From: Methylacidiphilum kamchatkense Kam1
GTDB lineage: Bacteria > Verrucomicrobiota > Verrucomicrobiia > Methylacidiphilales > Methylacidiphilaceae
Assembly (NCBI RefSeq): GCF_007475525.1
Contig: NZ_CP037899.1
Span: 868,001-932,000, forward strand
Direction of reading: 5' to 3'
DNA length: 64,000 nt
The position numbers and the translations under genes are program-made. The notes under the pieces are model-generated. The model saw only the letters and a program-made list of their open reading frames with translations, ran no database searches and had not been told where the DNA came from. Shown here in pieces: positions 6,936 to 12,383 of this stretch (positions within the stretch are counted from its first letter, which is position 1; each line of letters opens with the position of its first letter).

Positions 6936-7742
6936 ATGAAAATTACCTATCTGTTGGATGTTGTTTTTCCTTTTTTAGGTGTATTGGCAGAAGAGGGAGC
7001 GTCGAAACCCATTACTGTATTGGATCTGCTAAAATCGGGTGGTTGGGTTATACTGCCTCTTTTTTTAATTTCTTTTTTGGTTGTTGCCTTAATTTTCTAC
7101 TATTTTGCTTCTATACGACTATCAGCTGTTTGGACAAAGGATCTTGACAGAAGGATAGAGAATGCTCTTAAGAAACAGGATCTTTTTTTAGTTGCAGAAG
7201 TAATAAAAAACCGATCCGAAGGCTGTGCCCGTCTTTTAAAAGAAGTATTGAATTTTTTATCTAAGCATAAAGATGCAGATCTTGAATCAGTGACTTCCGT
7301 AGCTGAAGCTTTTGGAAGCGGATTTTCCTCTCTACTTAACCAAAGAATACTTTATTTGCTTGACGCAGGAGTGATTGCTCCAATGTTAGGTCTTTTTGGA
7401 ACGGTCATTGGGATATTAAGATCTTTTGGATCGATCGCTGCCGAGCCTTCGCCAATGCGGACACTTTTGCTTGCTGGAGGGGTATCTCAAGCTCTTGTCT
7501 CTACTGCTATTGGATTGATTGTTGGCATTTCGGCAATGTTTTTCTATTCTTTTTTTAGGGGAAGAGTTCAATATCTAATCTCTGTGTTTGAAGAGCGATC
7601 AGTCATTTGGGTTCAAGAAATTTACCTTTTGAATAAGAAAATCCAGCATAAGCCTGCACCAGAAGTCAAAGCTTTTGCTGCTGGATCTTATGATGTGGAT
7701 GAATCAAGTGAAGAATCGAGGGAAGAAAATAAGGAAGGATAA
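6936..7742 (+). CDS. ExbB/TolQ/MotA-family proton channel subunit
   Basis: Inner-membrane subunit of a proton-motive-force-driven complex. It has an N-terminal hydrophobic segment, a strong helix around WVILPLFLISFLVVALIFYY, a cytoplasmic loop with ALKKQDLFLVAEVI, and the paired helices of the family (LLDAGVIAPMLGLFGTVIGILRSF and ALVSTAIGLIVGISAMFFYSFF). The GLFGTVIGI and STAIGL stretches are diagnostic. The acidic C-terminal tail (DVDESSEESREENKE) is unusual. The start is ATG 6936; a TTG three codons upstream is less likely. It leads a four-gene run with exbD, a TPR protein and a TonB/OmpA-like protein. Confidence 0.9.
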   Translation: MKITYLLDVVFPFLGVLAEEGASKPITVLDLLKSGGWVILPLFLISFLVVALIFYYFASIRLSAVWTKDLDRRIENALKKQDLFLVAEVIKNRSEGCARLLKEVLNFLSKHKDADLESVTSVAEAFGSGFSSLLNQRILYLLDAGVIAPMLGLFGTVIGILRSFGSIAAEPSPMRTLLLAGGVSQALVSTAIGLIVGISAMFFYSFFRGRVQYLISVFEERSVIWVQEIYLLNKKIQHKPAPEVKAFAAGSYDVDESSEESREENKEG

Positions 7743-7767
7743 GGAACGGAGTGGAGAAGTTTAACGT

Positions 7768-8196
7768 ATGAATTTCAGAAAAAGAGTAGGGGTTGAACAG
7801 ATCGGCTTACAGCTGGCACCCATGATTGATGTAATTTTGTTTTTGCTTTCCTTTTTCCTTTTGACTTGGAATTTAGCCCGCTATGAAGCTGATCTAGAAG
7901 TAAAAATACCCAAAGCGAAAAATGGAGAGTTACCCAAGAGGTTACCTGGAGAAGTGATCATCAATATTACCAAAGATGGGCAAGTCAATTTAAATCATAG
8001 GGTTGTTTCAGCCAAAGAACTAGAAGAAATTATCAAAGGAGTGATTCAGCAATACCCTGATCAGGCAATAATTATTCGTGCTGATGAAGAAACAAGTTAC
8101 AAAGAAGTGATCAAAGTATTGGATGTTTGTCGCGCGGTTAATGCCTGGAATATTGCCTTTGCGACAAACCGACCCGATATGACTTCTTCACAATGA
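7768..8196 (+). CDS. ExbD/TolR-family biopolymer transport protein
   Basis: Small inner-membrane partner of ExbB. One transmembrane helix near residues 16-36 contains the essential proton-carrying aspartate (LAPMIDVILFLLSFFLL, Asp at about residue 21), followed by a periplasmic domain ending in PDQAIIIRADEETSYKEVIKVLDVCR, typical of ExbD/TolR. The length of 142 residues is normal. The ATG has an upstream GGAG at about 7752. It lies 25 bases after the ExbB gene, so the two are surely co-expressed and form the motor that energises the neighbouring TonB/OmpA-like protein. Confidence 0.92.
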   Translation: MNFRKRVGVEQIGLQLAPMIDVILFLLSFFLLTWNLARYEADLEVKIPKAKNGELPKRLPGEVIINITKDGQVNLNHRVVSAKELEEIIKGVIQQYPDQAIIIRADEETSYKEVIKVLDVCRAVNAWNIAFATNRPDMTSSQ

Positions 8197-8242
8197 AAGA
8201 AAGATGGTTAAAATTTTATAAAGGTTCCGAAGATGTAAAGGA

Positions 8243-10603
8243 ATGAAATGTAGTAAAAGATCTTGGAACAGACCGCTTCTTATCAGCTTGTATTTCTTTG
8301 TTATCCTCTTTCTTTTTTGGATATCGAATGCAATGCTTTTGGCTCGTACTGAGAAACAGGCTCAGAGTGTGGAAATCATTCCTACGGCTGATGTTGATTT
8401 AGATAGAGCGATAGCGCTTTATAGGCAAGGTGAGTATGAAGAGGCAATAAAGATATTTTATAGAATACTGCCGTTATTATCTCCAGGGAAAAAAACTGAA
8501 GCACTTTATTCAATGGCTGATTGCTACCGGCTGATTGGAAGAAAAGAGGATGCAATCAAAATTTATCAAATGCTTGTTCAAAGCGATCCATCAAGTGCTT
8601 TTGCACCCACAGCCTATTTTTGGGAAGGCAAGTTATTATCAGAATTAGGTAATTTTGCACAAGCGGCTGCAGCGCTTAAAATAGCAGTGGAAAAAGCCGA
8701 TCCTCAGACAGCCAATGCTGCTAGTTTTCTTCTTGCATTGTGTCAACTTCGAATAGGTGAAGAAGAAAAAGGAGTGTGTAGACTCAGAGAATTGGTTGAG
8801 AAATCCGCAGATCTAAGGGTTGAGGCTGCTGCGGTATTGGCAACATATTATGAATCTATTTTCGATTGGGGACATGCTTTAGAATTTTGGTCTATTGTTT
8901 TACATGAAAGTAAAGATCCTCAAACAAAATCAAAAGCTTTGACACGTTGTGGTTGGGCAGCTTGGAAATCTGGACAGCCAAAAGAAGCCGAACATTATTT
9001 CACTCAAGCTTCAGGAGGACCTCCCTATACGGAATGGAATAGGATAGCTAACAGCGGTCTTTTTGAATTTTACTTATCTCAAAACCGATATAAGGAAGCT
9101 ATTCAATTTTATGAAAAACATAAGGAAGGATTTATAGAAAACCAGAAAGAAAAAATTCTTCTAGATTTATCAACTGCCTATATAGAGACGAAAGACTATT
9201 CGAAAGCTCTTTCGATTATTGACTTATTTCTTGCCAATTATCCCAAATCCTCCTTGGTTGATCTGGCTGTATACAGAAAAATTGTAGCTAATTATTATCT
9301 AGAGCAAGGTTCGTTGGAAAAAAATGCCCAGCAATTTTTCTCACAATATCCCTCCTCTCCTTATATTTATCCTCTACTTTATTTGGAAGCAGAAGAATAT
9401 AACAGAACCGGAAAATTTGCTTTGGCTCTTCCGATATGGGAAAAGTTGGAATCTGCCCATTCGGACTTAGTCCCCAAAGAAGCTATTCTGCTTGGGCGAG
9501 CTAATTCTTTGTATGGTCTTGAAAAGTGGAGTGAAGCAGCAGAGCTTTTTAAAAAGTTCTTAACCGAATATCCCAAATCGAGGGAAATGGTTCATGTGAA
9601 GATGCATCTTGCGAGTGTCCTCGAGAAAGTGGGAGAAAAGAAAGAGGCATTGAAATACTGGCAGGAAGCTCTTGGAGCCGTTAAAAGAACTGATCCAGAA
9701 AGGCAAAGTTGCCTTGAGCAAATCGGCATTTTAGCATACGATCTAAAAGAAAATAGCTTGGCTGCGGAGACTATGCAGAAAGTTTTAAGCGAATATCCAC
9801 ATTCTTCTTATCGTGGTGTTGCAGCCTGGATTGTCGGACAATCAAAATATGAAAATAAACAGTATGAAGCGGCAAAAGAGTATTTTTCTTTAGCTAGAGA
9901 AGCGGAACCTGAAAAACTCTACTTGGCAGCTACCCTGATGCTTGCCTGGATTGCCTATCACCAAGACGATGTTGAGAAAGTGTGCTCCTATGTCCAATCT
10001 TACGAAGACAATTATAAAAAAGGGGCTGAAGCAATCCCAACCGAGCTTTACTATTGGATCGCTTCTCGACTTTTACAAAAAGGAAAACTCGATTTAGCCG
10101 TTTTTTATTTTAAAAAAGTCATTCAAACTGCTCCATCTAAAGATAAATATTATATTTCAAGTCTTTGGCAACTAGCTGAAACAGAACGCAAGCTAATGAA
10201 TTGGAAAGAGGCAAATGCTTATTATCTTGAATTCCAGAAAGCAGATCCTCAAAACGCTTCCAATTCGCCTGTCCTCTTAGGCTTAGCTGAGACACAAATT
10301 GCTCTAGGGCAATTTGCCGAGGCACAGAAAAACTTAGAAGAGGTATTGTTAAAGGAACCTGAAGGAGAAAATAATGCCAAAGCTAGGATGCTTATCGGAG
10401 ATAACTATTTGGCCCAAAAAAATTATCGGGAAGCAGCAAAAGCCTACACGACTTTGAGTTTGATTTATCAAGACGATACGATTACTCCCAAAGCCATGCA
10501 AAAAGCTGCTTTTTCTTTTTCTAAGGCTGGAGACAATGATCAGGCCGCTTTTTGGGAAAAAAAACTAAAAGAAAAATACCCGCAGTTCAAACCGGACGCC
10601 TAA
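8243..10603 (+). CDS. Large membrane-anchored TPR protein of the Exb/OmpA locus
   Basis: A 786-residue protein with one N-terminal signal anchor (LLISLYFFVILFLFWISNAML) followed by about a dozen or more tetratricopeptide repeats, for example ALYRQGEYEEAIKIFYRIL and EALYSMADCYRLIGRKEDAI near the start and AKARMLIGDNYLAQKNYREAAKAY near the end. TPR arrays of this kind act as protein-binding scaffolds, here presumably in the periplasm. It sits between the ExbD gene and the TonB/OmpA-like gene, and its TAA overlaps the next ATG (TAATG at 10601), so translation is coupled. The place of a periplasmic scaffold in a Tol-like system recalls YbgF/CpoB, but this protein is about three times longer. Confidence 0.85.
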   Translation: MKCSKRSWNRPLLISLYFFVILFLFWISNAMLLARTEKQAQSVEIIPTADVDLDRAIALYRQGEYEEAIKIFYRILPLLSPGKKTEALYSMADCYRLIGRKEDAIKIYQMLVQSDPSSAFAPTAYFWEGKLLSELGNFAQAAAALKIAVEKADPQTANAASFLLALCQLRIGEEEKGVCRLRELVEKSADLRVEAAAVLATYYESIFDWGHALEFWSIVLHESKDPQTKSKALTRCGWAAWKSGQPKEAEHYFTQASGGPPYTEWNRIANSGLFEFYLSQNRYKEAIQFYEKHKEGFIENQKEKILLDLSTAYIETKDYSKALSIIDLFLANYPKSSLVDLAVYRKIVANYYLEQGSLEKNAQQFFSQYPSSPYIYPLLYLEAEEYNRTGKFALALPIWEKLESAHSDLVPKEAILLGRANSLYGLEKWSEAAELFKKFLTEYPKSREMVHVKMHLASVLEKVGEKKEALKYWQEALGAVKRTDPERQSCLEQIGILAYDLKENSLAAETMQKVLSEYPHSSYRGVAAWIVGQSKYENKQYEAAKEYFSLAREAEPEKLYLAATLMLAWIAYHQDDVEKVCSYVQSYEDNYKKGAEAIPTELYYWIASRLLQKGKLDLAVFYFKKVIQTAPSKDKYYISSLWQLAETERKLMNWKEANAYYLEFQKADPQNASNSPVLLGLAETQIALGQFAEAQKNLEEVLLKEPEGENNAKARMLIGDNYLAQKNYREAAKAYTTLSLIYQDDTITPKAMQKAAFSFSKAGDNDQAAFWEKKLKEKYPQFKPDA

Positions 10604-11628
10604 TGAAAACAGAACCATTCCATTCCATTTCCCTAATCTTAGATAGGAAAACGGTCACCTTAGCTGTTATTCTCTCTCTGCTCGTGCATTTAGGTCTAAT
10701 TTTAACAGTCGGTCCGTTGCGGATTAAAAATTTCTCTGTGCCTTATACGACGAAAAAATTCAATAGGAGGATAGATCTAAAAAGGGCTGAGTTGCCGGCT
10801 TCCATTTTTCAAGCCAGAGCCGAAACCAAAAGCCCATCGGTTACTCCCATTCCTGCTCTGGAAGCTCCGAAACAGATCAAGGCTATTAATCCTTTGGTTC
10901 AAGACATCACACAAGCCAATCCGGTTAGGATCCCAATGCCATCGGTTGTTCCTGGGGGAGCGCCTGAAGTTGCTGTTTTATCTCCGACTCCTCCTACGGC
11001 CGTAAGCCCCTATGAAGAGGATGCTAAATCTCAGCTTCAATCCATGATCTCTCATCTCATAACCGGGCCTTCCTCATCCGGTGTGCCAAATACAAATAAT
11101 ATTCTACCTTCAGGTCTTGGACATGATCCAATTCCAGGAGCGAGTGCAGCTGGTCAAGCGGGGACGCATCCAACAGGGACAAGCGGAGGAGAAGGCATAC
11201 CAGGAGTGGATGACATTCAAACACAGTTCAAAGCGGCTGCTAATTTTGATCCAAGGATTCCACAGCCCGTAGTTTTGCGTTTGCCAAGCGATATCCTTTT
11301 TGATTTCGATTCGGCAAACATAAAAGCCGATGCGGAACCACTTCTTTTCCAAGTGCTAGAAATCTTAAAAAAATATCATCGGGCCGATGTTGAAATCGGT
11401 GGGCATACGGACACATTCGGTGATAATATGTATAATTTACAGTTAAGCGAACAAAGAGCCTTTGCTGTCCAACAATGGCTAGAAGCTCATCTGCCTGCAG
11501 GAATGTATAATTTCCATTCTACTGGGTATGGGAAAAGTCATCCCATTGTGAATCCAAGGGGATCGATTGAAGAACAAGCCAAAAATCGCAGAGTAGAAAT
11601 AGTCATCCGAGCACTAGTTGAAGAATGA
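10603..11628 (+). CDS. TonB/TolA-type anchor fused to an OmpA-type peptidoglycan-binding domain
   Basis: A 341-residue protein in three parts. Residues 17-36 form a single membrane helix containing S25-L-L-V-H29, the SxxxH spacing that TonB and TolA use to contact ExbBD/TolQR. Residues of about 60-215 are a Pro/Gly/Ser/Thr-rich linker. From about residue 225 there is an OmpA/Pal/MotB-type domain (ILFDFDSANIKADAEPLL, GGHTDTFGDNMYN, LSEQRAFAVQQWL, NRRVEIVI), which binds peptidoglycan diaminopimelate. ATG 10603 overlaps the stop of the TPR gene; the frame opens upstream but without a better start. It replaces a TonB C-domain with a wall-binding domain, which is functionally MotB-like. A role in envelope coupling is inference. 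Confidence 0.85.
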   Translation: MKTEPFHSISLILDRKTVTLAVILSLLVHLGLILTVGPLRIKNFSVPYTTKKFNRRIDLKRAELPASIFQARAETKSPSVTPIPALEAPKQIKAINPLVQDITQANPVRIPMPSVVPGGAPEVAVLSPTPPTAVSPYEEDAKSQLQSMISHLITGPSSSGVPNTNNILPSGLGHDPIPGASAAGQAGTHPTGTSGGEGIPGVDDIQTQFKAAANFDPRIPQPVVLRLPSDILFDFDSANIKADAEPLLFQVLEILKKYHRADVEIGGHTDTFGDNMYNLQLSEQRAFAVQQWLEAHLPAGMYNFHSTGYGKSHPIVNPRGSIEEQAKNRRVEIVIRALVEE

Positions 11629-11816: not shown

Positions 11817-12383
11817 GTGCGAGGAAAGGCTCAACCTTGTTTTTTGCTGTTATTCTTTTTTGTTTTTCTCTTTGATGTTTTTCCCAAAAGCATAGGAAAA
11901 ACTTCAAAGAACGCCTATAATAAAACCATCTATGTTTTAGTTGTTCATGAAGCATGGTTTAACAGGCCGCCGGAGTTTGTTTTATCGAGGTATGATTATC
12001 TCTCACAAAGGGATATTCTTTATCAAGAAACGATTGCTGCCTTTAAAAAGGCTTATCCTTCTTTGGAGGTAAAGAGGATCGATAAACTTAGTCAGGCTCA
12101 GGAAGGCATACCAATTATAAGGGTGGATTTAGGACGCTGGAGATATTCTTTTATTGGTACGAATGCTGCTACCGATATCGTTGTTCGACTTTTTGCTGAC
12201 TTTTATCCTTCAAAAGACTCAAAAGCTATTCACTTAGGTTCCTTTGGGAATGTTCAAAGAGCCCATGTTTGGCTTTATGATGGGTATCGAGACTTTAATG
12301 AAGATTATATTAATGCATTGCGGCCTGCCCTTGAAAAGATTGTTCAGGCTGTTGGGCCTTTGTTAGATTCACATCGAAAGTGA
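11817..12383 (+). CDS. Secreted protein of unknown function
   Basis: A 188-residue product starting at GTG, with AGAGG about 11 bases upstream. The first 28 residues are a signal peptide (MRGKAQPCFLLLFFFVFLFDVF). The mature part includes IYVLVVHEAWFNRPPEF, IPIIRVDLGRWRYSFIGTNAATDIVVRLFADFY and HVWLYDGYRDFNEDYINALRPALEKIV, and looks like a small mixed alpha/beta domain. No lipobox cysteine and no catalytic motif are recognised. It follows the Exb/OmpA genes on the same strand after about 190 bases, so it could be an accessory of that system, but nothing in its sequence proves this. Confidence 0.6.
   Translation: MRGKAQPCFLLLFFFVFLFDVFPKSIGKTSKNAYNKTIYVLVVHEAWFNRPPEFVLSRYDYLSQRDILYQETIAAFKKAYPSLEVKRIDKLSQAQEGIPIIRVDLGRWRYSFIGTNAATDIVVRLFADFYPSKDSKAIHLGSFGNVQRAHVWLYDGYRDFNEDYINALRPALEKIVQAVGPLLDSHRK

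Follow-up and report, generated by a model that had tools for sequence, protein, structure and literature searches.

An Exb-type motor locus in Methylacidiphilum encoding a TonB/TolA-like transducer with an OmpA head

Introduction

Can a proton-driven Exb-type motor act on peptidoglycan itself? TonB and TolA pass energy from the inner membrane to the outer membrane, and MotB merely holds the wall. The question is raised by a four-gene set of the methane-eating bacterium Methylacidiphilum kamchatkense Kam1, found at positions 6936 to 11628 of the window, the whole 64,000-nucleotide stretch of DNA that was analysed. The set encodes ExbB, ExbD, an exported TPR solenoid, and a transducer with an OmpA head that is referred to here as the chimera. 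The genome that holds it is 2.2 Mb in size and assembled as a single contig.

The four-gene locus

An earlier note on this DNA had claimed four adjacent genes joined by a stop/start overlap and tight spacing, and the reading is borne out, as all four genes lie where they were placed and each is matched by Pfam. The first gene (6936 to 7742, + strand) encodes a 268-aa ExbB/TolQ-family proton-channel subunit (Pfam MotA_ExbB, E 5e-23). It is followed after 25 bp by the gene for a 142-aa ExbD/TolR-family subunit with the proton-carrying Asp21 (7768 to 8196, + strand; Pfam ExbD, E 1.3e-27) and, after a further 46 bp, by the gene for the exported TPR solenoid protein of 786 aa (8243 to 10603, + strand; Pfam TPR matches), which had been called giant and is better described as large. 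The TAA stop codon of the TPR gene at 10601 to 10603 shares bases with the ATG of the last gene (TAATG). This gene (10603 to 11628, + strand) encodes the 341-aa chimera, a TonB/TolA-like transducer whose OmpA head is matched by Pfam OmpA at E 1e-14 over residues 232 to 328. No strong promoter or terminator signals were found at the operon, where counts were little above those in shuffles. Downstream of the operon, at 11817 to 12383 of the window, lies the gene for a 188-aa protein that is probably exported and has no family match; among the loci read, it occurs in the same genus only.

The chimera and its OmpA head

The chimera is made up of a membrane helix (residues 15 to 36), a proline-rich linker of approximately 165 residues, 24 of them Pro, and an OmpA domain. 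In the AlphaFold2 model, confidence is good for helix and head (residues 221 to 338 form the OmpA domain, pLDDT about 90), and the linker is disordered. Foldseek matches the head to OmpA, OprF, MotB, and YfiB domains with E values down to 4e-12, including 3td5, in which OmpA has a peptidoglycan pentapeptide bound. No TonB_C or TolA C-terminal domain was found in the chimera, for which Pfam reports OmpA only and AlphaFold2 and Foldseek an OmpA fold. The earlier description of an OmpA-type C-terminus in place of a TonB or TolA domain therefore holds by all three methods, and the residues of a putative peptidoglycan stem-peptide-binding pair, Asp270 and Arg285 (codons 270 to 285; 11410 to 11457, + strand), are intact. 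The pair is invariant in the 23 aligned proteins and occurs with the same spacing in 20 of 20 more, or 43 of 43 in all.

The membrane helix carries a putative motor-docking motif, S25-xxx-H29 (codons 25 to 29; 10675 to 10689, + strand). Of the 23 OmpA-headed proteins aligned, which come from many families, 21 keep the histidine and two have Tyr instead; the serine position is held by Ser in 15 of the 23 and by Ala in 8. A set of 20 further homologues, mostly from families unused before, has the histidine in 19, one of which was scored by eye because the start of that protein had been called too early. The total of 40 of 43, spread over many families of the Verrucomicrobiae, rules out a chance SxxxH match, the first of two ways in which the earlier note had thought its reading might fail. 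The other, an OmpA domain carried on a separate lipoprotein in orthologous clusters, was not seen either, as families in which the set is split keep the fusion and have the whole gene relocated. The earlier assignment of a TonB/TolA SxxxH motif stands for S25 and H29 and not for the rest of the SHLS pattern (S-x3-H-x6-L-x3-S), whose Leu and second Ser are absent from the chimera of the window; these two positions are less conserved in Ton systems (PMC12215075). A buried Asp of the MotB type is likewise missing from residues 16 to 36 of the helix, the sole nearby Asp being D14 at the helix start.

The chimera is 97% identical to a protein of Methylacidiphilum sp. Yel. A contig scan with the chimera as a single protein returned one Methylacidiphilum record only; single-sequence patterns are too narrow. 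Proteins with an OmpA domain in other arrangements were also seen: a 531-aa protein, apparently a fusion of a phosphate-type binding domain with an OmpA domain (L008:1468-3063; L and G numbers are working codes for loci and genomes), and a 308-aa protein with a membrane helix, a likely coiled coil, and an OmpA domain, without the SxxxH motif (L010:1009-1935).

The motor and the TPR protein

Pore residues Thr156 and Thr190 of ExbB and Ser46 of its TM1 are invariant in all 35 members of its clade, and D21 of ExbD is invariant in the five orthologues aligned. In E. coli, the Ser16/His20 pair of TonB touches Ser34 and Trp38 of ExbB (PMC12215075); the conserved Ser46 is the counterpart of this Ser34. 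The positions of the E. coli Trp/Pro relay are occupied by Val50 and Ser199 in the ExbB of the window. No clade member has the relay Trp, which is mostly replaced by Val or Leu, and 20 of 35 keep the TM3 Pro. Since Ser46 is kept but the relay is not, it is plausible from these alignments that the chimera docks on ExbB via S25/H29, with a relay that would not be identical to that of E. coli.

The TPR protein begins with a hydrophobic segment, followed by about 20 TPR hairpins that AlphaFold2 models as a long solenoid of 41 helices with a mean pLDDT of 90. Foldseek searches with this model gave generic TPR matches only, with TM-scores of about 0.2 to 0.3. An orthologue of the TPR protein adjoins ExbB/ExbD in most genomes examined. 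The motor could drive further transducers too. Approximately 6 kb past the end of the window (L013:4732-5973, about 938700 to 940000 of the contig) lies the gene for another SxxxH membrane protein, 413 aa long with a weak TonB_C match, which adjoins an ExbB/ExbD pair of its own.

Distribution and gene order

The earlier note had suggested looking for the same gene order in other genomes, and in profile searches, which covered Verrucomicrobiota genomes, the order was found in families f1, f2, f54, and f67 (f1, f2, and so on are working codes for families). Its carriers are Methylacidiphilum and two further genera of that family, the families f2 and f54 within the same taxonomic order, and f67, which belongs to another order. 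Adjacency of all four genes is thus found in at least four families: in every examined member of f1 and f2, in part of f54, and in f67. Chimera identity is 38 to 44% where the gene order recurs in other genera, and recurrence at this distance, together with the conservation of H29, places the gene set beyond chance. In f4, f6, f8, f11, and more families, the ExbB-ExbD-TPR unit is kept and the chimera gene is found far from it, so that the partnership there rests on co-occurrence. Among 141 genomes of the class, 66 have chimera and motor, 1 the chimera alone, 13 the motor alone, and 61 neither, as counted by eye from result tables at presence thresholds of E at most 1e-33 for the chimera and 1e-36 for ExbB. 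An ExbB orthologue is therefore present in 66 of 67 chimera genomes (Fisher p 1e-25, not corrected for phylogeny).

No chimera was found in the sampled genomes of other classes of the phylum. OmpA matches there were considered as a possible wider spread; the 20 that were read have N-termini like those of signal peptides or lipoproteins and lack the SxxxH helix, and therefore are not chimeras.

Exchange of the head

The chimera is not the only protein that occupies its slot. Transducers with SxxxH and a vWA head, encoded beside TPR and TolQR-like genes, have been described in the PVC group, their function unknown (Williams-Jones et al. 2025; PMC12204202). In the operons of f59 and f63, ExbB, ExbD, and the TPR gene are followed by a gene whose 570- to 584-aa product combines SxxxH with a vWA domain. 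A vWA profile search found vWA-headed proteins in seven of the eight motor-only genomes of the class that were searched (f58, f59, and f63); the eighth, G214, has no such match and is 85% complete. The family f17, of another class, also holds a vWA-headed SxxxH protein. SxxxH is present in all vWA-headed proteins read from motor-bearing genomes without the chimera. No vWA match of comparable strength was found in the sampled chimera-bearing genomes, and two weaker matches there that were read both lack the helix.

A profile of the N-terminal module, built from OmpA-headed proteins alone, matches vWA proteins of f58 at E 9e-19, 5e-12, and 8e-12 and that of f63 at 9e-9, and the best own-genome TonB reaches E 0.02. 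Judged by these profile scores, the N-terminal modules of the OmpA-headed proteins and of these four vWA proteins are homologous. Matches to the f59 vWA proteins are weak (E 1e-4 to 0.02), and that to the f17 protein is not significant (E 0.7). A conserved segment of the chimera, FNRRIDLKRAELPA, is also similar to a segment of the vWA-headed proteins; a juxtamembrane motor-box strand, as used by TonB/TolA transducers to contact ExbD/TolR, is not confidently predicted by AlphaFold2.

In the ExbB tree, the whole set forms one clade with 100/100 support, apart from the ExbB of the two-ExbD systems L122 and L123. At least two changes of head are needed on this tree, and a tree constrained to unite the OmpA-headed rows is rejected (p-AU 2e-7), as the vWA-headed f58 joins the Methylacidiphilum side; gene transfer could be an alternative cause of this placement. 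With a vWA-headed SxxxH protein in motor-only genomes and a helix module that several of these proteins share, a single motor clade seems to work with either of two interchangeable heads, OmpA and vWA. Read most simply, this is a motor whose arm keeps its base and exchanges its heads. L122 and L123 themselves each encode an SxxxH protein along with two ExbD proteins, a layout similar to that of the published vWA transducers; in the SxxxH protein of L122, Pfam does not detect a vWA domain.

Proposed mechanism and alternatives

We lean towards the view that the four genes encode a dedicated proton-driven Exb/Tol-type force-transducing machine, with an arm that would grip the wall and a TPR scaffold that would couple it to envelope partners. 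ExbB and ExbD would form the inner-membrane motor, on the side of which, at ExbB, the helix of the chimera may dock through S25 and H29. The flexible proline-rich arm would span the periplasm, and the OmpA head would bind peptidoglycan stem peptides. Proton flow via ExbBD would then place tension on the arm or move it in cycles, with force acting between the inner membrane and the wall, and the solenoid would act as a periplasmic scaffold for partners in the envelope, with peptidoglycan synthases or outer-membrane proteins as the probable ones. We infer the docking, the wall binding, the force, and the role in envelope coordination, and it is reasonable to suppose that the motor pulls on peptidoglycan.

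A link to wall synthesis is suggested by the Akkermansia-like genomes, a name given tentatively to f4. Here, a gene for a PBP1-type transglycosylase comes directly after ExbB-ExbD-TPR (L115, L116, L119, and L120), and in all four genomes examined its start either overlaps the TPR gene or follows the end of that gene by no more than about 25 bp; this neighbour was seen in one genus-level group only. The E. coli TPR protein CpoB is a binding partner of both TolA and PBP1B, and it adjusts wall synthesis to the Tol energy state (PMC4458516). By analogy, a wall-binding head and a TPR scaffold adjoining a wall synthase point to motor force that may be coordinated with the wall.

It is also conceivable that the chimera just tethers ExbBD to peptidoglycan, as MotB does with the stator, and that force goes elsewhere, for example to the TPR protein. 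The fold that the head shares with the MotB and OmpA wall anchors agrees with such tethering, as does the description of the periplasmic domains of ExbD and TolR as themselves OmpA-like (PMC12905483). However, the helix has the motor-docking S/H motif and not the Asp of MotB, the long proline-rich linker is like that of TonB, and the vWA head has no known wall-binding role, so that anchoring alone fails to explain both heads; we regard a static anchor as unlikely. Quite improbable, in our judgement, is a Tol-Pal-like system in which TolA and Pal functions are fused and the main contact of the head is the outer membrane or proteins in it, so that the envelope is stabilised during division. The best scores of ExbB and ExbD among NCBIfam equivalogs are indeed for TolQ and TolR, far below cut-off, and the TPR protein matches the YbgF/CpoB repeat model with a score that adds up over the repeats and does not establish that the protein is CpoB. 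Yet the operon has neither TolB nor a lipoprotein Pal, its ExbB clade is separate from TolQ, and the genome has a tolQ-tolR-tolA-tolB-pal locus elsewhere, which rules out that the four genes are simply Tol-Pal renamed. The earlier note had proposed looking for such a separate set, and it is present with a tolQ that reads as frameshifted; separate TonB_C proteins are also encoded. The tolQ of this locus (L011:3061-3794, about 2177560 to 2178293 of the contig) is in two pieces in different frames, which reflects either a real frameshift or a sequencing error close to a short homopolymer, and its relatives in the genus are intact.

Finally, the four genes might be neighbours only, the chimera being a passive linker from inner membrane to wall that is not driven by the adjacent ExbBD, with SxxxH reflecting cross-talk with Ton or Tol motors. 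The separation of chimera and motor genes in many families and the six ExbD-family genes of the Methylacidiphilum genome leave room for this; set against it, the near-complete co-occurrence of chimera and motor, the four-gene operon in the unrelated order of f67, and the exchange of heads within the same operon slot in f59 and f63 make it highly improbable.

The force-transducing reading thus being preferred, a broader and more tentative one, on which we incline slightly to doubt, is that these systems are a third Exb/Tol branch in the Verrucomicrobiae, with exchangeable OmpA and vWA heads on a homologous TonB-like arm, whose OmpA form would pull, probe, or remodel the wall directly, tied to wall synthesis, instead of acting on an outer-membrane target. 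If true, a motor with a moving arm that grips the wall would be a new use of the proton gradient. The OmpA/vWA swap on one motor clade also gives a handle on the vWA transducers described in 2025, as a target or task common to both heads should explain both. As the system occurs widely in the Verrucomicrobiae, apparently including Akkermansia-like gut genomes, it is testable where genetics exist.

Comparison with known systems

The MotA-MotB stator resembles the four-gene set in two respects: its channel is proton-driven and belongs to the same superfamily, and an inner-membrane partner carries an OmpA-type peptidoglycan-binding domain. MotB, the axle subunit, has both the wall-binding domain and the proton-binding Asp (PMC12505986). 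In the four-gene set, in contrast, ExbD is the axle, wall binding would fall to a third protein with an S/H helix, and there are no flagellar genes in the operon. Compared with TonB-ExbB-ExbD, the chimera has a similarly long proline-rich linker but carries an OmpA head instead of the TonB C-terminal domain. Tol-Pal with CpoB shares the TolQ/TolR-like motor, the TolA-like helix, the TPR protein, and an OmpA-type wall-binding domain, although this domain is on a lipoprotein in Tol-Pal and on the transducer here, and neither TolB nor a lipoprotein Pal is encoded beside the motor.

A published relative exists in the vWA-headed PVC transducers (PMC12204202), which share the TonB/TolA topology, the SxxxH helix, the proline-rich linker, a globular head that is not of the TonB type, and TPR and TolQ/TolR-like neighbours. 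They differ in having a vWA head where the protein of the window has OmpA and a pair of ExbD genes where the four-gene set has one; in the latter, the TPR gene comes after ExbD, and its ExbB clade is separate from the two-ExbD systems examined. The earlier note had known of no named system with this exact set. That statement needs to be narrowed by the vWA-headed relative, and it holds for the OmpA-headed form, as no OmpA-headed TonB/TolA protein was found in the literature searched (open-access main text). The four-gene set is real and is a new form among Exb/Tol-type force-transducing systems, and the OmpA- and vWA-headed arms together point to a family of bacterial envelope machines that is so far little known.
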